A stretch of DNA of 64,000 nt, taken from positions 186,001 to 250,000 of the forward strand of contig CANXME010002014.1 of NCBI GenBank assembly GCA_948144175.1. Reading direction: 5' to 3'. Under the pieces are notes generated by a model. The model saw only the letters and a program-made list of their open reading frames with translations. It did no database searches and was not told the DNA's origin. Shown piece by piece: positions 1,094 to 30,632 of the stretch (positions are counted from its first letter, which is position 1; each line of letters starts with the position of its first letter). The DNA comes from Closterium sp. NIES-65. Lineage: Eukaryota; Streptophyta; Zygnematophyceae; Desmidiales; Closteriaceae. Both the position numbers and the translations under genes were made by a program.

Positions 1094-1098
1094 GGATC
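1094..1098. repeat. Target site duplication of E1 (GGATC), left copy
   Basis: GGATC directly precedes the 5' LTR, and the same five bases (8587-8591) follow the 3' LTR. The uninterrupted partner arm near 22131 shows the site as a single copy in reverse complement. This is a direct view of the empty site and confirms copia-type integration with a 5-bp duplication. Confidence 0.95.
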
Positions 1099-1243: not shown

Positions 1244-1334
1244 GTCCTACCTTAGGACCGTTTTCTGGGCCCACCGAAGCGCGCCCCGAGGCGCGCCCCG
1301 AGGCGCGCCCATTTTTTTTTTAGCGACCCCTCGG

Positions 1335-5747: not shown

Positions 5748-8249
5748 TTCGCTTGCCGCTGGAGGCGTGCTGCTGAGTCTGGAGGTGCCGCTGGAGCTGG
5801 AGCTGGAGCTTCTTCGACCGTCGAGGGTGCGGGTGCTGCCGGTCCTGGAGTTGCTGGACCTGCGGGTCCTTCTGGAGCTGGAGCTGCTGAGGGCGTTCGT
5901 GCTGAGCCTGCTGCTGTTGGTCCTGCCGCTGGAGGTGTGGGTGGCGCTGGTGCTGTCGCTGAGGGTGCTGGTGCTGTCCCTGCTGAGTCTGGAGCTGCCG
6001 CGCGGCCTCGGCCGTACTTCGTTCCGCTCCTCCAGCAGGTTCTTGGTCTTTCTCCTCCAGTAGAGGGTCCACCGCCTGTCCAGTCGCAGTCCCTACTGGA
6101 GCCTTCCTCTCCACTGCCTGCTCCCTCTCCTTACACTGGTCCTACTGGAGGTCTTGCTGAGCGTCGTGAGCCTGCGTCTCGTCCCGCGTCGCCTGTTCGT
6201 GCTGCTCGCGCTAGTGGTCGCAGTTCGCGTCAGCGTCCTCCTCCTGTCCCTGGCACGCACCGGATGTCTCTTCGTCCGTCCACTGCTCCTCTGCGTGCCC
6301 CTTTGCCTTCTCCTCCTGAGTCCTCTCTTCCTGCGCTTGCCGACCCTGCGTCGGACTCTCTTCGCGCTGCGAGTCCTACTGTCACGCGTCTGCTTGCTAC
6401 TGTCGTCACTGACCCCTCTTTTGAGTCCACTGCTGCGTCTGCTCTGGTCGCTGAGCTCGTTGACTTTGCTGCTCGCTGTCGTCTCGACTACGCTGCTAGT
6501 CTTGTTGCTGAGTCTGCGTCTGTCTGTCCTCCGTCCGTCGGGGGTGAGTGTGCTCTTGGCACGGACGTCCTAGAGGACAGGCAGGAGGAGTTACAGTGTC
6601 TAGCGGCTGCTTCACCTCATCTCGCGTCTGTACTGCTTGCCCCTGAGGGAGACCCGGATGCACTAGACATCCCGACTCCGCGTTCTTACGCGGAGGCCGT
6701 AGAGGGTCCCTACTCCTCTCAGTGGCAGGCAGCTATGGATGCAGAGATGGCTTCCTGGAAGTCCATAGGCACCTACGTTGACGCGGTTCCCCCTCCTGGG
6801 GCGAACATCGTCAGTGGCATGTGGATCTTCAGGGTGAAGCGGCCGCCGGGCTCTCCACCTGTCTTCAAGGCACGGTACGTTGCTCGTGGCTTCAGTCAGC
6901 GGCAGGGAGTTGACTACTTTCAGACCTTCTCTCTCACCCCGAAGATGACTACTCTTCGGGTGCTGCTGCACATAGCCGCTCAGCGCGACTACGAGCTTCA
7001 CTCTCTCGACTTCAGCACTGCGTTCTTGCAGGGTAGCCTGCACGAGGAGATCTGGCTTCGCCGTCCACCTGGCTTCACTGGGACTTTCCCTCCTGGCACC
7101 CAGTGGAGCCTCCGACGGCCAGTCTACGGTCTCCGCCAGACACCGCGTGAGTGGCACGACACACTGAGGACTACGCTTGCGGCTCTTGGGTTTGCTCCTT
7201 CTACTGCTGACCCGTCGGTGTTTCTTCGCACCGACACTTCCCTGCCGCCGTTCTACATCCTCGTGTACGTCGACGACTTGGTCTTTGCCACAGCGGACAC
7301 TGCTGGACTCGCCTACGTGAAGTCCGAGCTGCTGAAGAGACACACGTGCACAGACCTGGGTGAACTGCGCAGCTACCTTGGCTTGCAGATCACTCGGGAC
7401 AGAGCACGCCGCACCATTACCTTGACTCAGTCACACATGGTGCAGCAGGTCCTTCAGCGCTTCGGCTTCACGTACTCCTCGCCTCAGGCCACTCCTCTGC
7501 CTACTCGCCACTCACTCTCAGCTCTGCCTTCGGATGAGTCCGTAGAGTCGAGTGGTCCGTATGCAGAGCTTGTTGGCTGCCTCATGTACCTGATGACCTG
7601 CACACGACCTGACCTTGCATACCCTCTGAGCATTCTTGCACGCTATGTTGCTCCTGGGAGACACAGACCGGAGCACATGGCTGCAGCGAAGAGGGTATTG
7701 CGCTACCTGTGCAGTACGTCAGGCATGGGGCTAGTGCTTGGAGGGCGGAGTCCAGTGGTCCTTACCGGCCACGCGGAAGCTTCTTGGGTTGACGACCAGG
7801 CTACGCAGCGGTCGTCACAGGGTTACACCTTCAGCCTTGGTTCCGGCTCTGTCTCGTGGCGGTCTACTCGCTCGTCTTCGGTTCTCGGCTCCAGTTGTGA
7901 GGCTGAGATCTACGCCGGGGCCATGGCTGCACAGGAGCTTCGCTGGCTCACCTACCTGCTGACTGACCTTGGAGAGCCGCCTCGTTCTCCTCCAGTGCTG
8001 TACGTAGACAACAAGGCTATGCTGGCCTTGTGTCGAGAGCAACGCTTGGAGCACAGAACGAAGCACATTGCTCTCCGCTACTTCCTTGCTCGTGAGCTGC
8101 AGCAGCGTGGTCAGTTGCGACTTGCGTACGTGGCCTTTGAGGCCAACACTGCTGATGTGTTCACCAAGGCACTCGCGCCTTGTGACCATCAGCGCTTTTG
8201 CACCCAGCTGGGTCTTGTGCCTGTCTTGCCTCACTTGCTCTCCTCTTGA
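5748..8249 (+). CDS. E1 pol part 2: reverse transcriptase and RNase H
   Basis: In the same frame as the upstream pol segment, open from the codon after the TGA through to TGA 8247-8249. RT copies the element RNA into cDNA. It shows MDAEMASWK at the RVT_2 start (about 6735), FKARYVARGF, the DFSTAFLQG segment and the catalytic YVDD (about 7266). RNase H follows with SSCEAEIYA and YVDNKAM. The first RNase H acidic motif reads GHAEASW, where E4 has GHSDASW, so the Asp is replaced by Glu. Expression would need readthrough or reinitiation (first ATG at 5937). Confidence 0.9.
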   Translation, partial: FACRWRRAAESGGAAGAGAGASSTVEGAGAAGPGVAGPAGPSGAGAAEGVRAEPAAVGPAAGGVGGAGAVAEGAGAVPAESGAAARPRPYFVPLLQQVLGLSPPVEGPPPVQSQSLLEPSSPLPAPSPYTGPTGGLAERREPASRPASPVRAARASGRSSRQRPPPVPGTHRMSLRPSTAPLRAPLPSPPESSLPALADPASDSLRAASPTVTRLLATVVTDPSFESTAASALVAELVDFAARCRLDYAASLVAESASVCPPSVGGECALGTDVLEDRQEELQCLAAASPHLASVLLAPEGDPDALDIPTPRSYAEAVEGPYSSQWQAAMDAEMASWKSIGTYVDAVPPPGANIVSGMWIFRVKRPPGSPPVFKARYVARGFSQRQGVDYFQTFSLTPKMTTLRVLLHIAAQRDYELHSLDFSTAFLQGSLHEEIWLRRPPGFTGTFPPGTQWSLRRPVYGLRQTPREWHDTLRTTLAALGFAPSTADPSVFLRTDTSLPPFYILVYVDDLVFATADTAGLAYVKSELLKRHTCTDLGELRSYLGLQITRDRARRTITLTQSHMVQQVLQRFGFTYSSPQATPLPTRHSLSALPSDESVESSGPYAELVGCLMYLMTCTRPDLAYPLSILARYVAPGRHRPEHMAAAKRVLRYLCSTSGMGLVLGGRSPVVLTGHAEASWVDDQATQRSSQGYTFSLGSGSVSWRSTRSSSVLGSSCEAEIYAGAMAAQELRWLTYLLTDLGEPPRSPPVLYVDNKAMLALCREQRLEHRTKHIALRYFLARELQQRGQLRLAYVAFEANTADVFTKALAPCDHQRFCTQLGLVPVLPHLLSS

Positions 8250-8254
8250 CTTCA

Positions 8255-8454: not shown

Positions 8455-8586
8455 TGTCAGATTTATATGACATAGTTGCTGTAGGCTATAGTGGGGTAGC
8501 ACATATGGGGTACAGGGTTTCTAGGGTTGTATTTGTACCCAATCTTTCCTTAGTCATTTCATTTTTCCTGTTTTCCTTGCTTCACA
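8455..8586 (+). repeat. E1 3' LTR
   Basis: 132 bp, identical to the 5' LTR, ending TTCACA and followed by the GGATC duplication (8587-8591). Confidence 0.95.
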
Positions 8587-9286
8587 GGATCGACCAGGAT
8601 TGACCAGCATTGACCAGCAATGAACAGCACTGACATGCACTGACCAGCAAGAACATGCTTTGACAAGCAACGACCAGCATTGACAGCGTTGACCTGCATT
8701 GACCCACATGCATCGACTAGGATTGACCAGGACTGACTCACCGCGAATCCAATGAGGATGTTGCGCGCAAAGCCGCCCTGCACTTGAAACATCTCGCCAT
8801 CATCCACCACCTGATGATGCCGAGGACGAGGAGGATGTGGGGGGAGAGGAGTCAAGGGTGGTGAGGGAGAGCGTGGGATTGCATGAAATGAAGTGGGCAC
8901 TTGGAGACAGCCACCTGCCACCTCAAACATCTCCCCAGCGTCCAGGTGAAGAAGAAGGGACAAGCTAGACAAAGGGATGAGAGAGGGTGGCGAGGGTGTG
9001 TGGAGAGGAGTGTGCAACAAGGCACAGCCGCCCTGCACCTAAAAAGAATCTGCCCATCGTCCGCCAGTTGAAGAAGCGAGGCAGAGAGTAAGGGTTATGA
9101 CGGGGAGGGTGGTGAGGATGGTGGGGGAGAGCGTGGTGTGTGTAGTGAAGTGACAGGGTATCTCCACGGTCCACCATAGCATCCCGTCTCTCTCCCTCTG
9201 TTCCACCCATGCCATACGCACTCCCACGCAGTTCCATCCATTCATACAGTCACAACCAGTACAACATGTACTGATACACGTGCAAC
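8587..9286 (-). repeat. Inverted-repeat left arm, inner part
   Basis: Reverse complement of 21436 to about 22135, with a handful of substitutions. It contains the inverted copy of PCCB exon I, its two upstream partial copies and a TGACCAGCA-like short-repeat stretch (8590-8735). Similarity ends abruptly at 9286, paired with 21436, 42 bases before PCCB exon A. Confidence 0.95.
8742..8810 (-). pseudogene. Inverted copy of PCCB exon I
   Basis: 69-bp reverse-complement duplicate of 21912-21980 with intact AG and GT flanks and an open frame ([12 protein letters not shown]). It is antisense to the + strand PCCB exons. Confidence 0.85.
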
Positions 9287-9328
9287 CCCCACTCTCCTCC
9301 TTCCCGCTCTCTCCCTCCCCCCGCTCAG

Positions 9329-9361
9329 ATCATGGAGAAGGCAATGCTTGTGGGAGCACCT
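9329..9361 (+). CDS. PCCB: PCCB exon A, 33-nt microexon
   Basis: Eleven codons ([11 protein letters not shown]) between CGCTCAG and GTACGT, phase 0 on both sides. It matches the PCCB segment just before the GGAR exon. A 20-bp copy of its 3' end plus donor lies at 9526-9545 in the following intron. Confidence 0.85.
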
Positions 9362-12300
9362 GTACGTCCCTCTACCCTCCCTGCCCTACCCCCGCCCTTC
9401 CCCACCACCCCTCCTCCATCGCTGTGCGTGTGCCACAATCCATCGCTGTGCGTGTGCCACAATCCATCGCTGTGCGTGTGCCACAATCCATCCATCTCAA
9501 TAGACCCACGTCTCCTTGTGCTTCTGGGAGCACCTGTACGTCCCTGTCTTCCCCGATTCCTATCTTTCCTTCCACGACCCACCCTGCTCCATCCCCATTC
9601 TTACACAGAAATCCTTTATTCACTTCGTTTTGACAGACTGTAACCCTGTTCTTTGTACTCCTTGCACAACCCCCTCCAATCTCCACCTTAGTTGCTTACT
9701 GTCGTTTCAAATCCCCTCCCTCTCACACTCATGACCCCCTCACCTCGCCCTCTCGTCCTGCCTCACAACATGCCTTCCCATGCCATGCATCAACGAGTCT
9801 CAGGTCATAGGCATCAACGATCCGGGGGGGGCTCGAATCCAGGAGGGCGTTGTGTCGCTGGCCGGCTATGCCAACGTCTTCCAGGTCAGTTTCACTCCAC
9901 TCAAAGTTGCTCCTGTCGCTTTCTTTGTGTATGCAGGCAATGGAGGGCATCTGATCTGACGGGCAATGGAGGGCATCTGAACTGACGGGCAATGGAGGGC
10001 ATCTGATCTGACGGGCAATGGAGGGCATCTGATCTGACGGGCAATGGAGGGCATCTGATCTGACGGGCAATGGAAGGCATCTGATCTGACGGGCAATGGA
10101 GGGCATCTGATCTGACGGGCAATGGAGGGCATCTGATCTGACGGGCAATGGAGGGCATCTGATCTGACGGGCAATGGAGGGCATCTGATCTGACGGGATC
10201 TTTGGTCTCCTTTACTCATGGAGGGTGGATGGGTGGCCCGCTGATCAGGCAGTAGACTTTACTTTAGCAACGTGCAGGGCCAGGTGATGTGGGTTGAGAG
10301 AAGCTGATAGACTCTCCTCCTTTCCCCCCTGTCTCTCTCCTCTCCTGGTTTTCCCTCCCCTGCATCCTCTCGCAGCTGAACGTGCTGGCATCGGGAGTCA
10401 TTCCGCAGCTCTCCCTCATCATAGGTCCCTGCGCAGGTGTCCAACGGCTGGGGGCCTGGGGGGCAGAACACCACTTATGTGGGCTGGGCTGGGCTGGGAT
10501 GGATGGGATGGGATGGGATGGGATGGGATGGGATGGGATGGGATGGGATGGGATGGGATGGGATGGGATGGGGAGGGAGGGGATGGGATGGGATGACATG
10601 TCATGTCATGTCATGTCATGTCATGTGCTGTGATGTAATGTGATGTGACGTGATGTGGCATGATGTGATGAGATGGAATTGGATGTTCTTCTGTACCTTG
10701 TGCTGTCTGCCCCACTGTACCTTGCCATACCTTGCCATATCTTGCCATACCTCGCTGTTCCATGTAGTCCACCCATCCGCCTTGTGTGTGTGTTCTCTCT
10801 TCCTAACCTTGGATGTCCCCCAACCATCCCTGCAGGTGGTGCTGTCTACTCGCCTGCTCTCACGGATTTTGTGGCCATGGTGAGATGCGGTGAAAAGTGG
10901 GGAGATGCGGTGAAGAGTGGTATTGTGCAATGTTCTGCCTGTCACGCGTTCCATTCAATTCAGCTGATATTGCACCTTCCCTTGGTTGCCCCTCCCGCCT
11001 GCCAATCGACCTTCAATATTTCAATCAAACTTTCTGTCCACACCCCCACACTCCCTAAAGCCATTTGACCTACCTCTCCACACTCCCTACATTTGACATG
11101 TGTTGAATGTCCTGCCCTCCCTTGTGTGCATGTGTTGCTCTACCTCTCTGCATGCCCTCCCTTGTGTGCATGTGTTGCTCTACCTCTCTGCATGCCCTCC
11201 CTTGTGTGCATGTGTTGCTCTACCTCTCTGCATGCCCTCCCTTGTGTGCATGTGTTGCTCTACCTCTCTGCATGCCCTCCCTTGTGTGCATGTGTTGCTC
11301 TACCTCTCTGCATGCCCTCCCTTGTGTGCATGTGTTGCTCTAACTCTCTGCATGCCCTCCCTTGTGTGCATGTGTTGCTCTACCTCTCTGCATGCCCTCC
11401 CTTGTGTGCATGTGTTGCTCTACCTCTCTGCATGCCCTCCCTTGTGTGCATGTGTTGCTCTACCTCTCTGCATGCCCTCCCTTGTGTGCATGTGTTGCTC
11501 TACCTCTCTTCATGCCCTCCCTTGTGTGCATGTGTTGCTCTACCTCTCTGCATGTCCTGCTCTCCCTATTCGACCGACACCCTGCTTCCCTCACTCACTC
11601 ATTTCCCACTCCCCCTTCACCGCTCGGCCCTAGGCACGGCATACACGTTCGCGGCCAAACGTGACGAGGAGAAGGACGCCCGTTGCTGCTCACTGCTCAT
11701 ACCCCCCTCCCCTCCAATGCTCCGCACACCCGTGGCACGGCACGGCGTTCATGTGTGTGACGGGGCCTGCCATGCTGAACCACGCTCTCTGCTGCTCCCT
11801 GCTCTCTTGTCTCTTATCCAATTGACCTGCCCCTGCATTCCCCCCTCCTGCATTCCCCCTCCTGCATTCCCCCCTCCTGCATTCCCCCCTCCTGCATTCC
11901 CCCCTCCTGCATTCCCCCCTCCTGCATGCCCCCCTCCTGCATTCCCCCCTCCTGCATTCTCCCCTCCTGCATGCCCCCCTCCTGCATTCCCCCCTCCTCA
12001 TTTCCCCTCCCCAGACTCGAGGCACGGCGTACATGTTTGTCACGGGGCCTGACGTGGTGAAGCAAGTCACATTCGAGGATGTCACGCGGGTATGCGTGCC
12101 ACTTGTGCATGTGCACTCGCGTTGTGGTTGTGCTGTCCATTATCACTCACACTCTCTTTTCACAGCAGGAGCTAGGGGATTTTTTTTGGGGCGTTTTTTG
12201 TGGACGTGTTGTTTTTGAATCGTAGAAAAGCAGTCGCATTGTGGTTGCGGGCGTGCATCCTCACACTCTCCCCTCCCCCACACCACAGGATGAGCTAGGA

Positions 12301-15300
12301 GGAGCGGACGTGCAGTCCAAGTCAGGGGTGGTGCACCTGGCGTATGACAACGAACTCGATGCTCTTGCAAGGTGCGCTGCTGTGTGCTGTGGGCATGGTC
12401 ATGTGGTGTGGGTGGGATGGGGGGAGGTGTGGTGTGGGTATGGTCATGTGGTGTGGGTGGGATGGGGGGAGGTGTGGTGTGGGTATGGTCATGTGGTGTG
12501 GGTGGGATGGGGGGAGGTGTGGTGTGGGTATGGTCATGTGGTGTGGGTGGGATGGGGGGAGGTGTGGTGTGGGTATGGTCATGTGGTGTGGGTGGGATGG
12601 GGGGAGGTGTGGTGTGGGTATGGTCATGTGGTGTGGGTGGGATGGGGGGAGGTGTGGTGTGGGTATGGTCATGTGGTGTGGGTGGGATGGGGGGAGGTGT
12701 GGTGTGGGTATGGTCATGTGGTGTGGGTGGGATGGGGGGAGGTGTGGTGTGGGTATGGTCATGTGGGGTGGGTGGGATGGGGGGAGGTGTGGTGTGGGTA
12801 TGGTCATGCGCCCCCGACGCCTCTCCATCACGATGACCTACAAGGGGCAGCAGGCGGGCGTAGAGTCCAAGCCAGGAGTGGAGTGGTGCTCCTCGCGTAT
12901 GACAATGAGGTGGACGGCCTTGCAGGCTGTGGTGGGGTGGGGTGGGGTGGGGTGTGGTGTGGTGGGTGAGTTACGCCGATGCTCTGATGGCGCACGCAAG
13001 TGTGTTGAGACTCCACCACTCGAGCTGTCCTTCTCTGCCCTCCCACCCTCTCCTCTCTTCTCCTTTCCTCTCCTCTCCATTCCTCTCCTCTCCTCTCCTC
13101 TCCTCTCCTCTCCTCTCCTCTCCTCTCCTCTCTCGCTCTCCCCTCTCTCTAGCACCAGGATCCGAGACCTCTTTGACTTCCTGCCGCTCTCCAATCAGCA
13201 TGCGCCACCTCTGCGCCCCAACTTCGACTCCCCGTGAGTCACTTGGAGATACATCTCATTTGACCCCCTTCTTGGAGATGCATCTCATTTGCCCCCTTCT
13301 TGGAGATGCATCTCATTTGCCCCCTTCTTGGAGATGCATCTCATTTGCCCCCCTTCTTGGAGATGCATCTCATTTGACCCCCTTCTTGGAGATGCATCTC
13401 ATTTGCCCCCCTTCTTGGAGATGCATCTCATTTGCCCCCCTTCTTGGCGATGCATCTCATTTGACCCCCTTCTTGGAGATGCATCTCATTTGACCCCCTT
13501 CTTGGAGATGCATCTCATTTGACCCCCTTCTTGGAGATGCATCTCATTTGCCCCCCTTCTTGGAGATGCATCTCATTTGCCCCCTTCTTGGAGATGCATC
13601 TCATTTGCCCCCCTTCTTGGAGATGCATCTCATTTGACCCCCTTCTTGGAGATGCATCTCATGTGACCCCCTTCTTGGAGATGCATCTCATTTGCCCCCC
13701 TTCTTGGAGATGCATCTCATTTGCCCCCTTCTTGGAGATGCATCTCATTTGCCCCCCTTCTTAGAGATGCATCTCATTTGCCCCCCTTCTTGGAGATGCA
13801 TCTCATGTGACCCCCTTCTTGGAGATGCATCTCATTTGCCCCCTTCTTGGAGATGCATCTCATTTGCCCCCTTCTTGGAGATGCATCTCATTTGCCCCCC
13901 TTCTTGGAGATGCATCTCATTTGACCCCCTTCTTGGAGATGCATCTCATTTGCCCCCCTTCTTGGAGATGCATCTCATTTGCCCCCCTTCTTGGCGATGC
14001 ATCTCATTTGACCCCCTTCTTGGAGATGCATCTCATTTGACCCCCTTCTTGGAGATGCATCTCATTTGACCCCCTTCTTGGAGATGCATCTCATTTGCCC
14101 CCCTTCTTGGAGATGCATCTCATTTGCCCCCTTCTTGGAGATGCATCTCATTTGCCCCCCTTCTTGGAGATGCATCTCATTTGACCCCCTTCTTGGAGAT
14201 GCATCTCATGTGACCCCCTTCTTGGAGATGCATCTCATTTGCCCCCCTTCTTGGAGATGCATCTCATTTGACCCCCTTCTAGGAGATGCATCTCATTTGC
14301 CCCCCTTCTTAGAGATGCATCTCATTTGCCCCCCTTCTTGGAGATGCATCTCATTTGCCCCCCTTCTTGGAGATGCATCTCATTTGCCCCCTTCTTGGAG
14401 ATGCATCTCATTTGCCCCCCTTCTTGGAGATGCATCTCATTTGCCCCCCTTCTTGGAGATGCATCTCATGTGACCCCCTTCTTGGAGATGCATCTCATTT
14501 GCCCCCCTTCTTGGAGATGCATCTCATTTGCCCCCCTTCTTGGAGATGCATCTCATTTGCCCCCCTTCTTGGAGATGCATCTCATTTGCCCCCCTTCTTG
14601 GAGATGCATCTCATTTGACCCCCTTCTTGGAGATGCATCTCATTTGACCCCCTTCTTGGAGATGCATCTCATTTGCCCCCCTTCTTGGAGATGCATCTCA
14701 TTTGACCCCCTTCTTGGAGATGCGTCTCATTTGCCCCCCTTCTTGGAGATGCATCTCATTTGCCCCCCTTCTTGGAGATGCATCTCATTTGCCCCCCTTC
14801 TTGGAGATGCATCTCATTTGACCCCCTTCTTGGAGATGCATCTCATTTGCCCCCCTTCTTGGAGATGCATCTCATTTGACCCCCTTCTTGGAGATGCATC
14901 TCATTTGACCCCCTTCTTGACGATGCATCTCATTTGACCCCCTTCTTGGAGATGCATCTCATTTGCCCCCCTTCTTGGAGATGCATCTCATTTGACCCCC
15001 TTCTTGGAGATGCATCTCGTTTGACCCCCTTCGTGGAGATGCATCTCATTTGCCCCCCTTCTTGGAGATGCATCTCATTTGACCCCCTTCTTGGCGATGC
15101 ATCTCATTTGCCCCCCTTCGTGGAGATGCATCTCATTTGACCCCCTTCTTGGAGATGCATCTCATTTGACCCCCTTCTTGGAGATGCATCTCATTTGACC
15201 CCCTTCTTGGAGATGCATCGCATTTGACCCCCTTCTTAGAGATGCATCTCATTTGACCCCCTTCTTGGAGATGCATCTCATTTGCCCCCCTTCTTGGAGA

Positions 15301-18300
15301 TGCATCTCATTTGCCCCCCTTCTTGGAGATGCATCGCATTTGACCCCCTTCTTGGAGATGCATCTCATTTGCCCCCCTTCTCGGAGATGCATCTCATTTG
15401 CCCCCCTTCTTGGAGATGCATCGCATTTGACCCCCTTCTTGGAGATGCATCTCATTTGACCCCCTTCTTGGAGATGCATCTCATTTGCCCCCCTTCTTGG
15501 AGATGCATCTCATTTGACCCCCTTCTTGGAGATGCACCTCATTTACCCCCCTTCTTGGAGATGCATCTCATTTGCCCCCCTACTTGGAGATGCATCTCAT
15601 TTGCCCCCCTTCTTGGAGATGCATCTCATTTGGCCCCCTTCTTGGAGATGCATCTCATTTGCCCCCCTTCTTGGAGATGCATCTCATTTGACCCCCTTCT
15701 TGGAGATGCATCTCATTTGACCCCCTTCTTGGCGATGCATCTCATTTGACCCCCTTCTTGGAGATGCATCTCATTTGCCCCCCTTCTTGGAGATGCATCT
15801 CATTTGACCCCCTTCTTGGAGATGCATCTCATTTGACCCGCTTCTTGGAGATGCATCTCATTTGCCCCCCTTCTTGGAGATGCATCTCATTTGACCCCCT
15901 TCTTGGCGATGCATCTCATTTGCCCCCCTTCGTGGAGATGCATCTCATTTGACCCCCTTCTTGGAGATGCATCTCATTCGCCCCCCTTCTTGGAGATGCA
16001 TCTCATTTGACCCGCTTCTTGGAGATGCATCTCATTTGCCCCCCTTCTTGGAGATGCATCTCATTTGCCCCCCTTCTTGGAGATGCATCTCATTTGACCC
16101 CCTTCTTGGAGATGCATCTCATTTGCCCCCCTTCTTGGAGATGCATCTCATTTGACCCCCTTCTTGGAGATGCATCTCATTTGACCCCCTTCTTGGCGAT
16201 GCATCTCATTTGACCCCCTTCTTGGAGATGCATCTCATTTGCCCCCCTTCTTGGAGATGCATCTCATTTGACCCCCTTCTTGGAGATGCATCTCATTTGA
16301 CCCCCTTCTTGGAGATGCATCTGATTAGCCCCCCTTCTTGGAGATGCATCTCATTTGACCCCCTTCTTGGCGATGCATCTCATTTGCCCCTCTTCGTGGA
16401 GATGCATCTCATTTGACCCCCTTCTTGGAGATGCATCTCATTTGCCCCCCTTCTTGGAGATGCATCTCATTTGACCCCCTTCTTGGAGATGCATCTCATT
16501 TGCCCCCCTTCTTGCAGATGCATCGTATTTGACCCCCTTCTTGGAGATGCATCTCATGTGACCCCCTTCTTGGAGATGCATCTCATTTGACCCCCTTCTT
16601 GGAGATGCATCTCATTTGACCCCCTTCTTGGAGATGCATCTCATTTGCCCCCCTTCTTGGAGATGCATCTCATTTGCCCCCCTTCTTGGAGATGCATCGC
16701 ATTTGACCCCCTTCTTGGAGATGCATCTCATTTGCCCCCCTTCTTGGAGATGCATCTCATTTGCCCCCCTTCTTGGAGATGCATCTCATTTGCCCCCCTT
16801 CTTGGAGATGCATCTCATTTGACCCCCTTCTTGGAGATGCATCTTATTTGACCCCCTTCTTGGAGATGCATCTCATTTGCCCCCGTTCTTGGAGATGCAT
16901 CTCATTTGACCCCCTTCTTGGAGATGCATCTCATTTGCCCCCCTTCTTGGAGATGCATCTCATTTGCCCCCCTTCTTGGAGATGCATCTCATTTGCCCCC
17001 CTTCTTGGAGATGCATCTCATTTGACCCCCTTCTTGGAGATGCATCTCATTTGCCCCCCTTCTTGGAGATGCATCTCATTTGACCCCCTTCTTGGAGATG
17101 CATCTCATTTGACCCCCTTCTTGGCGATGCATCTCATTTGACCCCCTTCTTGGAGATGCATCTCATTTGCCCCCCTTCTTGGAGATGCATCTCATTTGAC
17201 CCCCTTCTTGGAGATGCATCTCATTTGACCCCCTTCTTGGAGATGCATCTCATTTGCCCCCCTTCTTGGAGATGCATCTCATTTGACCCCCTTCTTGGAG
17301 ATGCATCTCATTTGCCCCCCTTCTTGGAGATGCATCTCATTTGACCCCCTTCTTGGAGATGCATCTCATTTGACCCCATTCTTGGCGATGCATCTCATTT
17401 GACCCCCTTCTTGGAGATGCATCTCATTTGCCCCCCTTCTTGGAGATGCATCTCATTTGACCCCCTTCTTGGAGATGCATCTCGTTTGACCCCCTTCGTG
17501 GAGATGCATCTCATTTGCCCCCCTTCTTGGAGATGCATCTCATTTGACCCCCTTCTTGGCGATGCATCTCATTTGCCCCCCTTCGTGGAGATGCATCTCA
17601 TTTGACCCCCTTCTTGGAGATGCATCTCATTTGCCCCCCTTCTTGGAGATGCATCTCATTTGACCCCCTTCTTGGAGATGCATCTCATTTGCCCCCCTTT
17701 TTGGAGATGCATCGCATTTGACCCCCTTCTTGGAGATGCATCTCATGTGACCCCCTTCTTGGAGATGCATCTCATTTGACCCCCTTCTTGGAGATGCATC
17801 TCATTTGACCCCCTTCTTGGAGATGCATCGCATTTGACCCCCTTCTTGGAGATGCATCTCATTTGACCCCCTTCTTGGAGATGCATCTCATTTGCCCCCC
17901 TTCTTGGAGATGCATCTCATTTGACCCCCTTCTTGGAGATGCATCTCGTTTGCCCCCCTTCGTGGAGATGCATCTCATTTGACCCCCTTCTTGGAGATGC
18001 ATCTCATTTGCCCCCTTTCTTGGAGATGCATCTCATTTGACCCCCTTCTTGGAGATGCATCTCATTTGCCCCCCTTCTTGGAGATGCATCTCATTTGCCC
18101 CCCTTCTTGGAGATGCATCTCATGTGACCCCCTTCTTGGAGATGCATCTCATTTGACCCCCTTCTTGGAGATGCATCTCATTTGACCCCCTTCTTGGAGA
18201 TGCATCGCATTTGACCCCCTTCTTGGAGATGCATCTCATTCGACCCCCTTCTTGGAGATGCATCTCATTTGCCCCCCTTCTTGGAGATGCATCTCATTTG

Positions 18301-21300
18301 CCCCCCTTCTTGGAGATGCATCGCATTTGACCCCCTTCTTGGAGATGCATCTCATTTGCCCCCCTTCTTGGAGATGCATCTCATTTGCCCCCCTTCTTGG
18401 AGATGCATCGCATTTGACCCCCTTCTTGGAGATGCATCTCATTTTACCCCCTTCTTGGAGTCAAACTACTCCAGCTCCACCATTCCACTCTACACTCGTC
18501 ACTCCTTTCTCCTCTCATTTCATCCCCTTATTTCATGTTTCTCACTCCATTTATGCACACCCGCGCCGTGCGCCCTTTCTCTCCCTCCTTTGAGCAACCT
18601 GTGCTGCATCCGCTCTCAGCACTGGCATCTCCTCCGCTCATGGATGCGCTGTGCCTCGTCACCCCAACAATGTGTTCCCGCACGCTTCTCCCTCCTTCCT
18701 ATTCCCCGCTTTTCCCCTCCCCCTCGCCCTCCCCCTCCCCTCCCCCTTCCCCTTCCCCTTCAACTCCACCTCCGCCTTCCCCTTCCCCTCCCTCTTCCAC
18801 TCCCCATCCTCCCATGTCTGCTCCCTCCCCACTCCCATCCCCTTGCCACCCCACCCATCCCCTCCCTCTCCACCTTTTACTCTAGCGACCTTGCTCCCCC
18901 TCTCTAGACTTTGATGTGCCTCACAACCCCAACGGAGTGCTCACTGTTCAATTAACGCACATCATTCCCCTCCCCTCCCTCTCTCTCCTCCCCTTCCTCT
19001 CTCTTTCGCCTCTCCTCCCTTTTCCTCCCCTGCTTCTCTTCGCCCCTTCTACCTTCTCGCCTCCCTCTCCTGTTCCCTACCCCCCCTCACACCACAGCAA
19101 CCGCGTCCTCCCCTCACTGGACTCTGCTCTGCTCCGCAACCCCAACACTGTTCTCCCCCTCGCCCTCCCGCTCCCCCTCCCCATGCCCCTCCCTCCCCCT
19201 TGCCCTTCCCGTTCCCCTCTCTTCCCCCAAGCCCACCACAGCAGCCCTTCCCCTCGCTGAACTTTGCTGTCCCTCGCCACCCCAACGCAGTGCTCACTCT
19301 CTAATCTTATGTCCCGCTCCCGTACTCCCCTCTCTTCGCTGGAAGTTAATATGCCCCAGGACCCTGACACAGTGCTCCTTGTCCAATTTCCGCTCTCGCC
19401 CCCTCCCAACCCCCCCTTCCTCCTCCCTCTTCCCCGCCTCCCTCGCCCCTCCTTTCGTCCACACCACAGCAACCCAACCGCAACCGCCCCCTCTGCAACT
19501 CGCTCTCTCTTGTGACCCCAACACCTAGAATCCCCTCTTCTGGCCCTCTCTCCCTCTCTCACGCCCTCTCCCACTCCCTCTCCCCTTTCTTGCATTCTCC
19601 ACCCACGCGACAGCAACCGTGTGTCGCCGTCGCTGGACTTTGCTGTGCCGCGGGACCCCAACACGGCATACGACATGGTGGAGATCATCGAGCAGGTGGG
19701 GTGGGGTGGTGTGGGGTGGGATGGGGTGGGATGGGGTGGGATGGGTTGGGGTGGGGTGGGGTGGGGGGGAGGGGGTTTGGGGTGGGGTGGGGTGGGGTGG
19801 GGTCTGGTTGTTGCATCTATACTTGTTGTGATTGTAGGAAAGGACCCCAGCACGGCATACGACACGGTGAAGGAGATCGTTGAGCAGGTGGGGTGGGGGG
19901 ACCCATGTGCCATGGATGTGAGTGAAGCACATGTGAAGCACATGTGAAGCATATGGCATGGTAGGAGGGGAAGAGAGACCCACCACGGCATACCACATGG
20001 TTGAGATCATCAAGCAGGTGTGGCTCTTGTACTGAGCCGTACCTATGGGCTATAGCTGTAGTGAGCCGTACCTATGGGCTATAGCTGTAGTGAGCCGTAC
20101 CTATGGGCTATAGCTGTAGTGAGCCGTACCTATGGGCTATAGCTGTAGTGAGCCGTACCTATGGGCTATAGCTGTAGTGAGCCGTACCTATGGGCTATAG
20201 CTGTAGTGAGCCGTACCTATGGGCTATAGCTGTAGTGAGCCGTACCTATGGGCTATAGCTGTACTGAGCCGTACCTATGGGCTATAGCTGTAGTGAGCCG
20301 TACCTATGGGCTATAGCTGTAGTGAGCCGTACCTATGGGCTATAGCTGTAGTGAGCCGTACCTATGGGCTATAGCTGTAGTGAGCCGTACCTATGGGCTA
20401 TAGCTGTAGTGAGCCGTACCTATGGGCTATAGCTGTAGTGAGCCGTACCTATGGGCTATAGCTGTAGTGAGCCGTACCTATGGGCTATAGCTGTAGTGAG
20501 CCGTACCTATGGGCTATAGCTGTAGTGAGCCGTACCTATGGGCTATAGCTGTAGTGAGCCGTACCTATGGGCTATAGCTGTAGTGAGCCGTACCTATGGG
20601 CTATAGCTGTAGTGAGCCGTACCTATGGGCTATAGCTGTAGTGAGCCGTACCTATGGGCTATAGCTGTAGTGAGCCGTACCTATGGGCTATAGCTGTACT
20701 GAGCCGTACCTATGGGCTATAGCTGTACTGAGCCGTACCTATGGGCTATAGCTGTAGTGAGCCGTACCTATGGGCTATAGCTGTAGTGAGCCGTACCTAT
20801 GGGCTATAGCTGTACTGAGCCGTACCTATGGGCTATAGCTGTAGTGAGCCGTACCTATGGGCTATAGCTGTAGTGAGCCGTACCTATGGGCTATAGCTGT
20901 AGTGAGCCGTACCTATGGGCTATAGCTGTACTGAGCCGTACCTATGGGCTATAGCTGTAGTGAGCCGTACATATGGGCTATAGCTGTAGCGAGCTGGGCT
21001 ATAGCTGTAGTGAGCCGTACATATGGGCTATAGCTGTAGCGAGCTGGGCTATAGCTGTAGTGAGCCGTACATATGGGCTATTGCTGTAGCGAGCTGGGCT
21101 ATAGCTGTAGTGAGCCGTACATATGGGCTATAGCTGTAGCGAGCTGGGCTATAGCTGTAGTGAGCCGTATCTATGGGCTATAGCTATAGCGAGCTGGGCT
21201 ATAGCTGTAGTGAGCTGTACATATGGGCTATAGCTGTAGTGAGCCGTACATATGGGCTATAGCTGTAGCGAGCTGGGCTATAGCTGTAGCGAGCTGGGCT

Positions 21301-24300
21301 ATAGCTGTAGTGAGCCGTACATATGGGCTATAGCTGCTGTGACTGTGTGGCACTGTGCGGATTGAAGGCTGAAAGGGCCCCAACACGGCATACAGCATGG
21401 TGGAATGGAAATCATAGAGCAGGTAGGGTGGGGCTGTTGCACGTGTATCAGTACATGTTGTACTGGTTGTGACTGTATGAATGGATGGAACTGCGTGGGA
21501 GTGCGTATGGCATGGGTGGAACAGAGGGAGAGAGACGGGATGCTATGGTGGACCATGGAGATACCCTCTCACTTCACTACACACACCACGCTCTCCCCCA
21601 CCATCCTCACCACCCTCCCCGTCATAACCCTTACTCTCTGCCTCGCTTCTTCAACTGGCGGACGATGGGCAGATTCTTTTTAGGTGCAGGGCGGCTGTGC
21701 CTTGTTGCACACTCCTCTCCACACACCCTCGCCGCCCTCTCTCATCCCTTTGTCTAGCTCGTCCCTTCTTCTTCACCTGGACGCTGGGGAGATGTTTGAG
21801 GTGGCAGGTGGCTGTCTCCAAGTGCCCACTTCATTTCATGCAATCCCACGCTCTCCCTCACCACCCTTGACTCCTCTCCCCCCACATCCTCCTCGTCCTC
21901 GGCATCATCAGGTGGTGGATGATGGCGAGATGTTTCAAGTGCAGGGCGGCTTTGCGCGCAACATCCTCATTGGATTCGCGGTGAGTCAGTCCTGGTCAAT
22001 CCTAGTCGATGCATGTCGGTCAATGCAGGTCAACGCTGTCAATGCTGGTCGTTGCTTGTCAAAGCATGTTCTTGCTGGTCAGTGCATGTCAGTGCTGTTC
22101 ATTGCTGGTCAATGCTGGTCAATCCTGATCGATCCTCCCACTCATCTGCAGAGGATGAATCTACTCTGATTGAACACTACACGAGTCATCCTAAAAGCTT
22201 GATAGCAATAGATTATCAGCATCAATACTGGTCCCTGCTAGCTTGTCATTCTTCTTGCCCGGTCTTTCCACATCTTTCACCCATTTTTACTCCATCTTCC
22301 CCCCACCTTCCACCCATCGTTTCCCCAACGCCTTCTCATTTCCCTTCCCCCATCTTTGCACCGTCAGAAACTGAACCGGGGCACGGTGGGAGTGGTGGCG
22401 AATCAGCCCACGGAGACCTTTTGAGTCGACTCAAAGGTCAATCCCCCCCAATTCCCCCCCATCTCCATCTTCCCCCGATCTGTGTGCCATTAGAGGCTGG
22501 ACGGGGGAACGGTGGGAGTGGTGGCGAATCAGCCCAAGGAGCAGGCTGGCTGCCTCGATATCAACGCCTCCATTAAGGTGAGTGAACCGTGAGTCACATG
22601 GTTACTTGCACTGTTAGGATGTGTTACAGCATAAGGTGGCGGAAATTGGTGTGGTAAATTTTGGTGCTATAAGGTTAACTGTGGTGTCACAAGGTTAAAG
22701 CTCGAGGCCCAAATTAAGATTACTAATCTTGCGCAAGGTTGAGTGCTGGGGTGGGGGGTGGGGGGTGGGGGTGGTGAACGCAAAGTTGAGGGAGGGGGTG
22801 GCCAGTCTGATTTCGCCTAACCTAACGTAACCAGATTTTTTCCAGGGTACAGTACAAAAAATGCCCTGTGCAGGCCCGCGGCTCAAATCGTGGATCGTGC
22901 GGGTCAAGCTTACCAAATATGACGGTGTGTTTCTTTAGAAGGGGTTTTGGTGATTGGTGTTTTGGGATGTGCGAAGGTCACTGATTTGCCAGTGCAAGGG
23001 AACTGAGAGTGCGAAAATAGTAAGGCCATGGGTGAAACCAAGCAACCCGCTTTCCCAAACTCCTCAACTTCCTTTGCTCGGCTCCCCCAACCAATGCTCA
23101 ACATAGAATGGCTGAACAACATGGGCTGCGGGCAGTGAAGCACACTGCATTCCATTGAACATAACAGTGAAGCACCAAAGGAATGTCACTGTTAATACCG
23201 TCCATCCCTTTTGACAACACACATGTGCTTCAACTCGCAATCTCTGCCCTGCACGCAATGTCATGGCATGCGATGTGATCAATGGCACTGCTATGTTACA
23301 ACATTGTATGGCATGTTACCACATGGCATGTGACCCATTACACTTGTATCTACAACGTTGTATGGCATGGCTTGCTGCGGCATGGCATGGTGTGAATTTA
23401 TTGACACCGCATGAGTGCAGGGAGCTCGCTTCGTGCGCTTCTGCGATGCGTTCAACATCCCCATCCTCACATTCGTCGACGTCCCAGGCTTTCTCCCAGG
23501 TATCATGCTTCCATTCCATGGTTCCATCTATCGTCACATGGAACTGTGCTTGAGTATATATACATATACATACGTGTTCCTGTGTGTGTTCGCGCTTATC
23601 TGCCTGCCCCTGCACGGAGGTGATTTTGTAGTCGACTGAAGACTCACATCCGGCTATAGTCACACAATCACAGGGGCATCATCAGGCAGACAGGGGGCAA
23701 AGCTGCTGCACGAATTTATACATGTGCATGATTGCTCTGATGTGCGTTGATGTGCGTCCTTGCGTGTCCATGCATGCTTATGTCATGTGTGCCAAGAGCA
23801 CTACGGAATTATCAGGCAGGGGGCGAAGCTGCTGCACCCACTACTGATACATAAATGCGTATTATGTGTGTGCTGTGCGTCTCTGCCCGTGCAGGCACGG
23901 AGCAGGAGCACAATGGCATCATCAGGCAGGGGGCGAAGCTGCTGTACACGTATGCGGAGGCCACGGTGCCCAAGCTCACTGTCATCACTCGCAAGGCGTA
24001 TGGCGGGGCATACGACGGTGAGACAAGCAGGAAGAGGCGTATGAGGGGCATATGAGTGTGAGTGTGTGTGTGCGCGCGCGCGCGTGCGCGATGGTGTCCA
24101 TGTGTAGAGATGGGGCTATACAGTGGTATTGTTCCTTACTGCACATGCAGAGATCACGGGTCCAAAGCACACTGTCTTTACTCGCCAGGCGTAATGTAGC
24201 GTATGTCGGTGAGAGAGGTGGGTGCGTTGAGGGTGTTGAGTGCCTGTTTAAGGTGGTGGGTGTGCTGCCTGCATGCATACATGCTTCTGCCCGACCTCAC

Positions 24301-24763
24301 TGCCCGACCTCACTGCCCGACCTCACTACATGACCTCACTGCATGACCTCACTGCATGACCTCACTGCATGACCTCACTGCATGACCTCACTGCATGACC
24401 TCACTGCATGACCTCACTGCATGACCTCACTACATGACCTCACTGCATGACCTCACTGCATGAGCTCCAAGGACTTGCGGGGTATCGCTAGCCTCTTCTC
24501 CTTTCATCTCAACCTTTCTGCTCCCGTTGCTCTTGTCAACCACCTCCCTCTTTCCTGCAGTCAGGACCTCTAAGCACCCGAGGGGCGACACCAACTATGT
24601 TACCTTGCCGTGCTTCTCACCTCGCCCCTCCTCTCTCGACCTCCCACCCCACCCCACCCCACCCCATCCCACCCCACGCGGTGCAGTGATGAGCTCCAAG
24701 CACCTAAGGGGCGACGCCAACTACGCGTGGCCATCTGCAGAGATTAAAGTGATGGGAGCCAAG
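9329..24763 (+). CDS. PCCB: Propionyl-CoA carboxylase beta subunit (PCCB), partial, 13 exons
   Basis: The biotin-dependent carboxyltransferase subunit moves CO2 from carboxybiotin on the alpha subunit to propionyl-CoA, giving methylmalonyl-CoA, usually in mitochondria. Exons: A 9329-9361, B 9804-9884, C 10376-10436, D 10836-10879, E 12015-12089, F 12289-12371, G 13159-13233, H 19614-19695, I 21912-21980, J 22494-22577, K 23421-23499, L 23895-24017, M 24687-24763. All introns are GT-AG and phases join throughout. Family signatures are GGARIQEG (B), [13 protein letters not shown] across [11 protein letters not shown] (E), AGCLDIN (J), VDVPGFLPG (K), [10 protein letters not shown] (L) and NYAWPSAEI (M). 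The GGA-containing loops suit a PCC rather than a methylcrotonyl-CoA enzyme. B reads NDPGGAR where relatives usually have Ser. About 150 N-terminal and 80 C-terminal residues are not in the window. Confidence 0.9.
9417..9492. repeat. 24-bp tandem repeat, 3 copies
   Basis: Three head-to-tail copies of a unit containing CATCGCTGTGCGTGTGCCAC, in the intron after exon A. Confidence 0.9.
9937..10196. repeat. 26-bp minisatellite, 10 copies
   Basis: Unit GCAATGGAGGGCATCTGATC plus TGACGG, nearly perfect, in the intron between exons B and C. One unit reads CTGAACTGA. The open minus frames here are repeat artefacts. Confidence 0.95.
10488..10640. repeat. GGGAT pentamer array merging into ATGTC pentamers
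   Basis: About 14 TGGGA/GGATG pentamers, a short degenerate stretch, then about 6 copies of CATGT, within the intron between exons C and D. Confidence 0.95.
11108..11556. repeat. 40-bp minisatellite, about 11 copies
   Basis: Unit starts CCCTCCCTTGTGTGCATGTG and ends CTCTGCATG. Rare variants occur at 11342 (TAACTC) and 11509 (CTTCAT). It lies in the intron between exons D and E; the open frames across it are repeat artefacts. Confidence 0.95.
11632..11779 (+). pseudogene. Two decayed copies of PCCB exon E
   Basis: 11632-11667 and 11733-11779 each resemble the start of true exon E (12015-12089). The shared core is GGCACGGC..ACA/CGTT, and the second copy also matches GACGGGGCCTG. Both lie in the intron upstream, in the same orientation, and neither is usable as a full exon. 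Confidence 0.7.
11833..12000. repeat. 15-bp CCCCCCTCCTGCATT array, about 11 copies
   Basis: Pyrimidine-rich tandem array placed directly before the exon E acceptor, so it forms or replaces the polypyrimidine tract. Confidence 0.95.
12392..12808. repeat. 45-bp minisatellite, about 9 copies
   Basis: Unit includes GTATGGTCATGTGGTGTGGG. It starts about 20 bp after the exon F donor. A decayed copy of exon F follows the array. Confidence 0.95.
12847..12930 (+). pseudogene. Decayed copy of PCCB exon F
   Basis: Matches exon F (12289-12371) at GAGTCCAAG, GGAGTGG, CGTATGACAA and GGCCTTGCAGG, with indels that break the frame. It is in the intron downstream of F, separated from it by the 45-bp array. 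Confidence 0.8.
13241..18460. repeat. 29-bp satellite array, about 180 copies, in a PCCB intron
   Basis: 5.2 kb of tandem units reading (T)GACCCCCTTCTTGGAG then ATGCATCTCATT. Each unit contains the perfect palindrome GAGATGCATCTC. Two main variants alternate irregularly, TTTGACCCCC and TTTGCCCCCC. 28-bp units with one C fewer occur only in about the first 1.2 kb. The array begins a few bases after the exon G donor. Because 29 is not a multiple of 3, many overlapping open frames of 68 codons or more arise; I regard these as artefacts. Confidence 0.97.
18617..19528 (+). pseudogene. Six decayed copies of PCCB exon H (5' part)
   Basis: Located at about 18617-18675, 18905-18945, 19096-19152, 19239-19295, 19321-19378 and 19468-19528. 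They share with the true exon (19614-19695) a CAG acceptor in several cases, CTGGACT or CTGAACT, and the core GNNACCCCAACNC. All lie upstream in the same orientation, spaced about 90-290 bp apart in CT-rich sequence. Confidence 0.8.
19697..19803. repeat. GGGGT/GGGAT pentamer array
   Basis: Begins inside the exon H donor (CAG|GTGGGGTGG) and runs about 105 bp. Confidence 0.9.
19836..20018 (+). pseudogene. Two downstream copies of PCCB exon H (3' part)
   Basis: 19840-19888 keeps an upstream TTGTAG, an open reading frame ([16 protein letters not shown]) and a GTGGGG donor, so it could act as an alternative or cryptic exon. 19976-20018 is more decayed but ends GAGATCATCAAGCAG|GTG. A third copy at 21374-21423 is described separately. 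Confidence 0.75.
20026..21338. repeat. Second 29-bp satellite array, then 50-bp composite units
   Basis: About 32 copies of TGAGCCGTACCTATGGGCTA plus TAGCTGTAG, then from about 20960 a composite of a 29-mer (with ACATATGGG) and a shortened 21-mer (CGAGCTGGGCTATAGCTGTAG), about six times. Sequence-unrelated to the array at 13241 but with the same unit length. Confidence 0.97.
21374..21423 (+). pseudogene. Decayed exon H copy beyond the satellite
   Basis: Matches CCCCAACACGGCATAC and ATCATAGAGCAG|GTAGGG of exon H with an insertion in the middle. It lies just outside the inverted-repeat right arm. Confidence 0.75.
21650..21825 (+). pseudogene. Two decayed copies of PCCB exon I
   Basis: 21650-21703 (GGCGGACGATGGGCAGATT ... 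GTGCAGGGCGGCT) and 21774-21825 (GACGCTGGGGAGATGTTTGA) each match the start of exon I (21912-21980). Both are duplicated in the inverted arm at 9020-9072 and 8897-8948. Confidence 0.8.
22365..22415 (+). pseudogene. Decayed copy of PCCB exon J, 5' part
   Basis: Follows an intact CAG and repeats GTGGGAGTGGTGGCGAATCA before diverging. It lies about 130 bp upstream of exon J and also occurs inverted in the left arm. Confidence 0.85.
23668..23838 (+). pseudogene. Two decayed copies of PCCB exon L, 5' part
   Basis: 23668-23715 and 23792-23838 share ATCATCAGGCAG or ATTATCAGGCAG, GGGGGCAAAGCTGCTG or GGGGGCGAAGCTGCTG, with exon L (23895-24017). Confidence 0.85.
24060..24085. repeat. GT/GC dinucleotide run
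   Basis: GTGTGTGTGCGCGCGCGCGC stretch in the intron after exon L; potential Z-DNA-forming sequence. Confidence 0.8.
24148..24213 (+). pseudogene. Decayed copy of PCCB exon L, 3' part
   Basis: Resembles the second half of exon L with its donor (ACTCGCCAGGCGTA ... GGTGAGAG), placed downstream of the exon. The frame is broken by a TAA and a deletion. Confidence 0.75.
24289..24464. repeat. 13-bp ATGACCTCACTGC array, about 14 copies
   Basis: Starts as CCGACCTCACTG and shifts to ATGACCTCACTGC, between exons L and M. The last unit merges into the partial exon-M copy at 24459. Confidence 0.9.
24459..24604 (+). pseudogene. Two decayed copies of PCCB exon M, 5' part
   Basis: 24459-24487 (ATGAGCTCCAAGGACTTGCG) and 24561-24604, which keeps CTGCAG and matches TCTAAGCACCCGAGGGGCGA and CACCAACTATG. 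The true exon is 24687-24763. Confidence 0.85.
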
Positions 24764-29400: not shown

Positions 29401-30632
29401 AGAATCGGATGGAGTGGGAACGGAGATGCGGAAGCAGCAGGGCGCAGAAAAAGTAGGGCGCGGGGTGGGGCGGTGGTACGGAGAAAGGGCCGCGTGCAGC
29501 GCGCAGCCCTGGTTTTGGGGAAGGGAGGGAGCCGGGAAGGAGGCGCGGGAAAGAGGGCGGCGCGGCGCGCGGAGGAGGGGGGTGCGCAGAGAAAAGTTGC
29601 GCGAGGAGGAGGGAGGCGCAAGAGGAGGGAGGCGCGTGGGGAAGAGAGGTGGTGCACCTGGGCGCTGCCCCCCTCTCCCCGAGGCACGCTCCCCCCTAGT
29701 CCCTCTCGCGCTGCCCTTGTGACCCCCGCGAGTCGCGCGCGCGACCTTTTTTTTTTCACGCGCGCGACCCGGGCCACGTCGCGCTGGCCTTACGGCCGCG
29801 TCGCGCCGCCCTCGCGGCTCTGCTGCGTCGCGCCGCCCTCGCGGCCCCCTAGCGCCGCCCACGCGGCCCCGCCGTCCCCTCTGCCGGCCCCGCCGCTACA
29901 TCCGACGGCCCCGCCGTCCCCTCTGCTGGCCCCGCCGCTGCACCTGACGGCCTCGCCGTCCCCTCTGCCGGCCCCGCCGCTACACCCGACGGCCCCGCCG
30001 TCCCCTCTGCCGGCCCCGCCGCTGCACCCGACAGCCCCGCCGTCCCCTCTGCCCGCCCCGCCGCTGCGCCCGACGACCCCGCCGTCCCCTCTCCCTGCCC
30101 CGCCGCTGCTTCACACGGCCCCGCCGCTGCACCTGAAGGCCCCGCCGTCCCCTCTGACGGCCCCGCCACTACGCCTGCCGGCTCGGCCACTACCTCTGAC
30201 GGCCCCGCTGCTGCACCTGCCGGCCCCGCTGCTGCACCTACCGGCCCCGCCACTGCACCTGACAGCCCCGCCGCTGCGTCTCCCGGCCCCGCCACTGCAT
30301 CTCTCGGCCCCGCCGCTGCATCTCCCGGCCCCGCCGCCCCAGCAGCTGAGCCGCCCCCGCAGCCGAGCCGCCCCAGCACCCGAGCCGCCCCAGCAGCCGA
30401 GCCGCCCCAGCAGCCGAGCCGCCCCAGTAGCCGAGCCGCCCCAGCAGCCGAGCCGCCCCTGCAGCCGAGCCGCCCCTGTAGCCGAGCCGCCAGAGCCGCC
30501 CGAGCCGCCGAGCCGCCCGAGCCGCCCACCAGCCGAGCCGCCGAGCCGCCTGAGCCGCCCGAGCCGCCTGCACTGCCTTGTCTGGTGAGCACTGAGCTTT
30601 ACTCTCCGCACTGCCCTCACCCTACTGCTGTC

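Follow-up and report, generated by a model that had tools for sequence, protein, structure and literature searches.

Tandem exon duplication, including that behind mutually exclusive exons, produces copies that are whole and carry both splice sites, and introners copy themselves into many genes. Among repair processes, one-sided homology-directed repair ended by end joining is known from reporter assays; for exon borders, we are aware of no record of it on a genome-wide scale. In the potato RdRp gene, an intron is reported to have been gained when a tandem duplication spanned an intron-exon boundary (PMC4974935); this is the closest single event that we have found to the pattern reported here. 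The pattern concerns a stretch of 64,000 nucleotides from Closterium sp. NIES-65 (the whole stretch is referred to as “the window”), in which 8 of the 13 exons of a propionyl-CoA carboxylase beta (PCCB) gene are accompanied, in the introns next to them, by truncated copies of themselves that reproduce the acceptor side of the exon when they lie upstream and the donor side when they lie downstream. No description of pervasive, two-sided, border-anchored partial exon copies was found in our searches of open-access literature, which leave most subscription papers outside.

For NIES-65 (C. peracerosum-strigosum-littorale), the genome paper reports that haploid cells yielded an assembly of 876 Mb, in which over half of the ortholog groups are duplicated (PMC10407611). 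The assembly searched here comprises 874,075,685 bp in 2400 contigs, and the window corresponds to C1716:186001-250000. The exons of its gene (A to M), all bordered by AG and GT, join into an open frame of 324 aa which represents a PCCB fragment, matching PDB 9wkr over residues 1-324 (E 3.1e-146) and being 74% identical to a Klebsormidium protein. The gene occurs in several versions: that of the window (W), whose sister is W2; P, at a distance of about 180 kb, and its sister P2; a more diverged one, Q, with its sister Q2 (L016-L019); and a fragment on C926. W and P differ at 11.7% of third codon positions. Contig pairs such as C1716/C32 are termed “sister copies” because alleles are not a given in a haploid.

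Every exon of the window gene was compared with every intron by Smith-Waterman alignment on both strands, with 100 dinucleotide shuffles per exon and with tandem arrays masked, a masking applied solely in this test. Scores above every shuffle were obtained for 10 of the 25 adjacent same-strand exon/intron pairs, with z from 6.8 to 16.6 (A/AB 6.8, E/DE 15.0, F/FG 12.4, H/GH 10.0, H/HI 12.5, I/HI 8.1, J/IJ 16.6, L/KL 9.8, L/LM 12.4 and M/LM 9.7), for none of the 144 non-adjacent same-strand pairs, and for none of the 169 opposite-strand pairs, two of which exceeded z 3. The exons thus recovered (A, E, F, H, I, J, L and M) are exactly those to which the initial annotation had attributed same-orientation partial copies; the polarity that it claimed also holds in W, and the copies that it listed do score above shuffled sequence. 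Its statement that “nearly every PCCB exon” is affected was too broad, as neither Smith-Waterman alignment nor blastn revealed copies of exons B, C, D, G and K in W. Altogether 21 copies were listed in W, 14 of which passed blastn at E<1e-3; each of the remaining seven weak copies reached p<=0.004 against 1000 shuffles inside its segment, in tests that were post hoc and uncorrected, on segments chosen by eye (an earlier coordinate existed for A alone).

All these features lie on the forward (+) strand; exons were delimited by their borders and frame (and, for A, by homology), and copies given below with no shuffle value were detected by blastn. Exon A (9329..9361) is followed by a copy of its 3' end, bases 17-33 (9519..9535; z 7.1, 0/1000 shuffles). 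After the copy-free exons B (9804..9884), C (10376..10436) and D (10836..10879), exon E (12015..12089) is preceded by a weak copy of its bases 6-48 (11632..11674; p 0.002) and by a copy of bases 7-50 of 75 with 84% identity (11739..11782). Downstream of exon F (12289..12371) lies a copy of its bases 16-81 of 83 (12854..12924), which is common to W and P (80% over 191 bp including flanks). Exon G (13153..13233) is again copy-free. Exon H (19614..19695) has six upstream copies, three of them weak (18641..18669, p 0.004; 19336..19370, 0/1000 shuffles; 19485..19524, p 0.003) and three covering bases 11-49 of 82 (18895..18933), 1-51 (19098..19148) and 14-49 (19251..19286), together with three downstream copies of bases 40-82 (19842..19887), 44-82 (19979..20017) and, past a 29-bp array, 40-82 once more (21375..21422). 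Exon I (21912..21980) has an upstream copy of bases 2-44 of 69 (21656..21700) and a weak one (21778..21813; 0/1000 shuffles), and exon J (22494..22577) an upstream copy of bases 4-48 of 84 with 91% identity (22371..22415), which is present in W and W2 and was not found in P. Exon K (23421..23499) is copy-free in W. Finally, exon L (23895..24017) shows upstream copies of bases 15-53 of 123 (23669..23711) and 9-53 (23793..23837) and a downstream copy of bases 58-106 (24145..24193), and exon M (24687..24763) is preceded by a weak copy (24460..24482; p 0.001) and by one of bases 5-37 of 77 (24565..24597).

The pattern is widespread among the sampled genes and not universal, as judged from this sample; its recurrence elsewhere in the genome, which the initial annotation had called for, is seen in the PCCB paralogues and in CCT and MCM genes. 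The pooled set comprised W, P, Q and five chaperonin (CCT) genes, that is, eight gene copies with 63 exons, searched by blastn at E<1e-3. The five CCT genes were taken from about 11, grouped by eye; overlapping Pfam ranges were known before selection for C1626, C43 and C1052, and none for C1757 and C1657. Copies were found at 40 of the 63 exons (W 7/13, P 5/13, Q 6/11, CCT 22/26), and 116 of the 117 copies lie in an adjacent intron. Upstream, anchorage is at the acceptor border in 52 copies and at the donor border in none, 9 being internal; downstream, 44 are anchored at the donor border, none at the acceptor border, 11 are internal and a single one is whole. Against these 117 copies, the controls returned two opposite-strand matches and one with reversed queries, and the 26 CCT exon cores of the five genes gave no match of either kind. 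Copies occupy 24% of intron bases in the CCT genes, 4% in W, 5% in P and 18% in Q.

Other genes were sampled more lightly. Three of four MCM exons carry copies, in a sample of 8 out of 10 loci (the four exons as sister pairs) from which L030 and L031 were dropped since the match crosses stop codons. Pfam ranges alone, counted with sister contigs kept separate and with some pairs being copy versus copy, gave 20 polar pairs, 2 whole, 0 contrary and 0 on the opposite strand for MCM (86 hits), and 14 polar, 2 whole, 2 contrary and 0 on the opposite strand for tRNA-synt_1 (52 hits). A tRNA-synt_2 gene on C749 shows range 43-89 before the exon (43-138) and ranges 85-139 and 88-139 after it. Another carboxylase gene, which we take to be MCCB-like, is nearly copy-free, with one internal 70% match over six exons in L021, and the same match plus one donor-anchored tandem with a 21-bp step over six exons in L022.

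Where an exon-side has several copies (29 cases), similarity to the exon is higher for the nearest copy than for the farthest in 22, lower in 6 and tied in one (p 0.004). The innermost spacers have medians of 73 and 77 bp, with 41 out of 50 falling within 40-130 bp and extremes of 14 and 482 bp. Cut points are scattered: upstream copies end at 0.17-0.75 of the exon and downstream ones start at 0-0.87, and copy lengths modulo three (42, 32, 43) reveal no excess of multiples of three. Most exon-sides have few, unequal copies, and arrays were found at exon L of P, exon L of Q and exon 5 of CCT_C43. The recent arrays include intron flank, with a 112-bp unit at exon L of P and a spacing of mostly 124 bp among the 11 upstream copies of CCT_C43 exon 5. 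Copy number also differs between sisters: exon L has 7 upstream copies in P and 5 in P2, and 11 downstream copies in Q and 5 in Q2, and exon B has one copy in Q2 and none in Q.

The intron flanks of the copies bear directly on their origin. Because a duplication that crosses the border copies intron along with the exon, a recognizable flank is expected beside the copy. Flanks were assessed for copies anchored at <=8 bases from the border, at exons of known border, and the expectation was simulated with co-duplicated flanks decaying at twice the divergence of the copy. Recognizable flanks were found at 16 of 49 exon-sides versus 42.6 expected and, at copy identity >=90%, at 7 of 22 versus 22.0. 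As a control, a similar, slightly more lenient detector was applied to true orthologous flanks, where it recognized 19 out of 25 for W versus P and 0 out of 42 when W or P was set against Q. High-identity copies are thus mostly devoid of recognizable homology past the border.

A second line of evidence comes from codons, analyzed in 97 of the 117 copies after repeated array copies had been dropped. The ratio of non-synonymous to synonymous change (N/S) expected for a freely decaying copy of a constrained exon is near 0.5; the 97 non-redundant copies gave 0.29, with values falling from the oldest to the youngest class from 0.42 (identity 60-80%) through 0.34, 0.23 and 0.18 to 0.10 (>=95%). CCT copies differ from their exons by 235 non-synonymous (N) and 326 synonymous (S) changes, a fraction N of 0.42 versus the expected 0.58 (p 6.5e-14), and the 20 CCT copies with identity >=90% by 23 N and 71 S, a fraction of 0.24 versus 0.58 (p 7e-11). 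The departure from neutrality is strong in CCT_C43 (N 52, S 77), CCT_C1657 (N 44, S 70) and CCT_C1052 (N 29, S 72). In a likelihood comparison over the 97 copies, a model with an initial synonymous gap (S0) of 0.12 reached a log-likelihood of 463.7, compared with 423.1 for neutral decay and 449.9 for a free synonymous rate, i.e., gains of 40.6 and 13.8 log units. We infer that copy and exon were probably already different from each other as coding sequences by the time the copy turned into junk.

As a tentative explanation, to which we assign a probability of roughly 0.4, we propose that a break inside an exon is mended with a diverged homologue as template, from which exon and some tens of bases of intron are copied, and that end joining follows. 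A double-strand break would separate the exon into two parts (E1 / E2), and one broken end would invade a diverged homologue, be it a homeologue or the allele of a mating partner, in which mainly the exons remain similar. The invading end would copy the missing part of the exon plus typically 40-130 bp of the homologue's intron, and would then be joined end to end, with no annealing, to the other broken end. With X as the broken sequence, Y as the donor, and F and G as flanking intron, the upstream product would read F(X)-E1(X) / F(Y)-E1(Y)-E2(X) and the downstream one E1(X)-E2(Y)-G(Y) / E2(X)-G(X). The outcome would be a full exon and a truncated copy facing away from it, with original intron as outer flank, a foreign spacer and the cut point at the break, and introns would grow inward from the exon ends. 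Were the template identical, the product would be the same as a border-spanning tandem duplication, expandable to an array, which may suffice for W and P. Polarity would arise because events survive only if a working exon is left, and the proposal would also account for the spread of cut points, the spacer lengths, the unlike yet functional-looking splice flanks and, where it is seen, the synonymous gap at birth. Exchange with diverged sequence finds support in exons B and C of Q and Q2, where the only differences are 10 synonymous changes, against a divergence of 3.1-5.5% (aligned columns) in nearby introns, as would result from exon-limited replacement. NIES-4550, of the same species complex, is reported to be of hybrid origin and to show recombination among genes that differ in origin (PMC10407611). 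Somewhat more doubtful is the wider picture in which homologues would pair mainly at exons, untidy repair would leave a stratified record beside them, and introns would grow inward by scars, each adding a decoy acceptor or donor.

Several observations weigh against repair from a diverged homologue. No donor sequence (Y) was identified, and the synonymous gap S0 could alternatively stem from later exon-limited conversion. The codon signal is marginal in Q (N 29, S 38; p 0.013) and CCT_C1757 (N 69, S 76; p 0.036), and absent in W (N 52, S 42), P (N 25, S 16) and CCT_C1626 (N 41, S 31); the non-synonymous fractions of W (0.55) and P (0.61), expected at 0.59, do not reject neutral decay. For the PCCB copies alone S0 gains 2.1 log units, and with one copy per exon-side its advantage is 21.9 over neutral decay but 3.1 over a model with a free synonymous rate; the several copies of an exon do not count as independent. 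At sites differing between W and P, the copies of W match the P exon at 9, their own at 3 and neither at 2, and the copies of P match their own exon at 9 and that of W at 2, an indecisive test. Between W and W2, and between P and P2, the synonymous divergence of exons is about equal to that of introns, and not above it. When the best copy per exon-side is taken, flanks are recognizable at 20 of 49, and one of the 15 failed young flanks, that of CCT_C43 exon 5, is an artifact of choosing the farthest array copy.

The explanation offered initially, and the one that survives best after repair from a diverged homologue, is plain tandem duplication across the border; slippage, unequal exchange or sister-chromatid end joining could produce it, and copy and flanks would then decay. 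Adjacency, orientation, polarity and recurrence fit it, the variation in copy number between sisters and the abundance of tandem arrays in the window speak for it, and so do the flanks recognized with the best-copy choice. It clearly made the fresh arrays at exon L of P and exon 5 of CCT_C43, whose units of 112 and 124 bp contain intron, and it may suffice for the window gene, since the codon test does not reject it in W, P or CCT_C1626. As a general mechanism it fares worse: it predicts all 22 flanks at identity >=90% where 7 were found, and an N/S of about 0.5 at every age where the two youngest classes gave 0.10-0.18, to which the young CCT copies add their low fraction N. It would also need intron flanks that change much faster than synonymous sites, and the W-W2 and P-P2 comparisons show the two about equal. 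As sole cause, therefore, plain tandem duplication looks strained, and we consider it rather unlikely for the whole pattern.

A less probable variant invokes two steps, in which a border-crossing duplication comes first and an exon-limited conversion later, the working exon being overwritten by a diverged paralogue or by an introgressed allele. Such a conversion would create the synonymous gap and spoil the flank match, and exons B and C of Q/Q2 would exemplify the kind of replacement involved; in Q2, the copy of exon B differs from its own exon at 1 of 53 bases, and both differ from the Q exon. On the other hand, two events per copy would be needed for many copies, and the conversion tracts would have to replace flanks too. 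The present data do not separate this sequence of events from the one-step repair proposed above.

We regard as improbable the notion that copies are exons in use, now or recently, or splice decoys under selection. Borders are retained in 44 of 50 (AG) and 39 of 44 (GT) anchored copies, N/S is low in young copies, and between sister copies their sites differ slightly less than other intron (3/1512 versus 76/14023), a divergence too low for a test of constraint. Per exon, however, the retention of AG is near that expected from copy identity (0.80 versus 0.77), that of GT being above it (0.92 versus 0.74). Upstream copies have an acceptor with no consistent donor and downstream copies a donor with no consistent acceptor: by inspection, no consistent splice site or GT marks the cut ends, and the lengths lack the excess of multiples of three. 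Furthermore, 55 of the 64 indels in copies break the frame; copies are therefore not coding at present. The continuous supply of alternative exons envisaged in the initial annotation would have to draw on such copies, each with a single splice border.

Chance similarity in low-complexity intron or an assembly artifact, to which introns rich in simple and tandem repeats might have lent itself, can practically be dismissed, chance being refuted by the adjacency (0/144), strand (0/169), reversed-query and shuffle controls (3 control matches in all, 2 opposite-strand and 1 reversed-query, versus 117), and copies being common to sister contigs and some of them to the paralogues W and P.

Other origins were considered and rejected. 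Whole-exon duplicates truncated later should have left whole copies in abundance, and 1 of 117 is whole. Retrocopies of mRNA do not fit copies that begin at AG or finish at GT beside intron-like sequence, as seen by inspection, and complete mini-exons fail, also by inspection, for want of a consistent splice site at the cut end. A family of introners or transposons is contradicted by the absence of hits among the 144 non-adjacent pairs of the window gene. The palindromic pattern CTTTTGAGNNNNCTCAAAAG was tried as a feature of copy junctions, allowing <=2 mismatches in the 12 fixed bases of its 16-base core: 7 of 34 motif sites lie <=25 bp from a junction versus 5.6 expected (p 0.31), and distances of 40 or 60 bp were non-significant as well. 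The pattern itself has 15,729 sites in the genome, compared with 0 for its backward reading as control; its centers include TCGA, AATT, GCGC, ACGT and others among the sites listed, shorter forms occur at window positions 794 and 22420, and some copies carry long perfect arms, of 42 and 52 bp, which are not alike between copies.

As for the locus itself, W lacks 5' exons that are present in W2, as checked in the first 30 kb of the window and in the 10 kb to its left. Positions 8586-9301 are the reverse complement of 21418-22136 (98.5%), positions 1-1107 are an inverted copy of 22121-23228 (99.5%), and inverted K, L and M are found further left of W; these inverted matches indicate that W starts at the joint of an inverted duplication, at about 9329. 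The first two matches are separated by some 7.5 kb of retroelement-like sequence and overlap by 16 bases (22121-22136), like an insertion with target-site duplication. The exons of W and W2 differ by 6 non-synonymous and 2 synonymous changes, and one member of the pair is therefore probably decaying, the truncated W being the likelier. Most of the G-H intron, whose length is 6380 bp in W against 2842 bp in W2, is occupied at 13242-18460 by an array of 180 copies of a 29-bp unit, and a second 29-bp array in the H-I intron (20028-21336) shifts to a 50-bp unit near its end. Judged by eye, the tandem-repeat units of window positions 1-8250, 29500-40000 and 57000-64000 are alike, and the first of these stretches ends in what we take, by eye, for a copia-like reverse transcriptase/RNase H frame. 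Elsewhere in the assembly, 24 near-identical matches resembling plastid accD are spread over 10 contigs (L003-L008 and others; 100-231 kb where a length is given), often as opposed pairs; plastid DNA is probably represented many times, accD having been translated and searched for the L004 match only.

If repair at exons is indeed the source of the copies, introns would have a way of growing that involves neither transposons nor simple repeats, and single exons would keep a readable record of break repair in which the divergence of the template is preserved. The copies would likewise represent natural decoy splice sites devoid of a partner, making exon definition testable in a close relative of land plants; read as repair scars, they would amount to very many natural tests of it, as decoys that splicing must ignore. 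That genes tolerate one-sided copies would fit exon definition. In practice, such copies may be a source of error for gene prediction and for the alignment of reads in this genome.

Compared with known systems, the copies resemble introners in supplying many new intronic sequences, and differ from them in that those of the window gene match the neighboring exon only. With tandem exon duplication they share the presence of extra exon copies in the introns beside the parent, the difference lying in the single whole copy among 117. One-sided repair would be expected to combine a homologous side with a joint that lacks homology, and to leave a duplication. The likeness to potato RdRp is the most direct, since there too, as reported, the duplicated segment spans the acceptor border, leaving the 5' part of the exon twice with the 3' end of the intron in between (PMC4974935). 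That case is reported as one event in one gene, and its new intron is spliced out (PMC4974935), whereas in Closterium the copies stand at most examined exons and on both sides, with no consistent donor at the cut end and a flank that is mostly unrecognizable.

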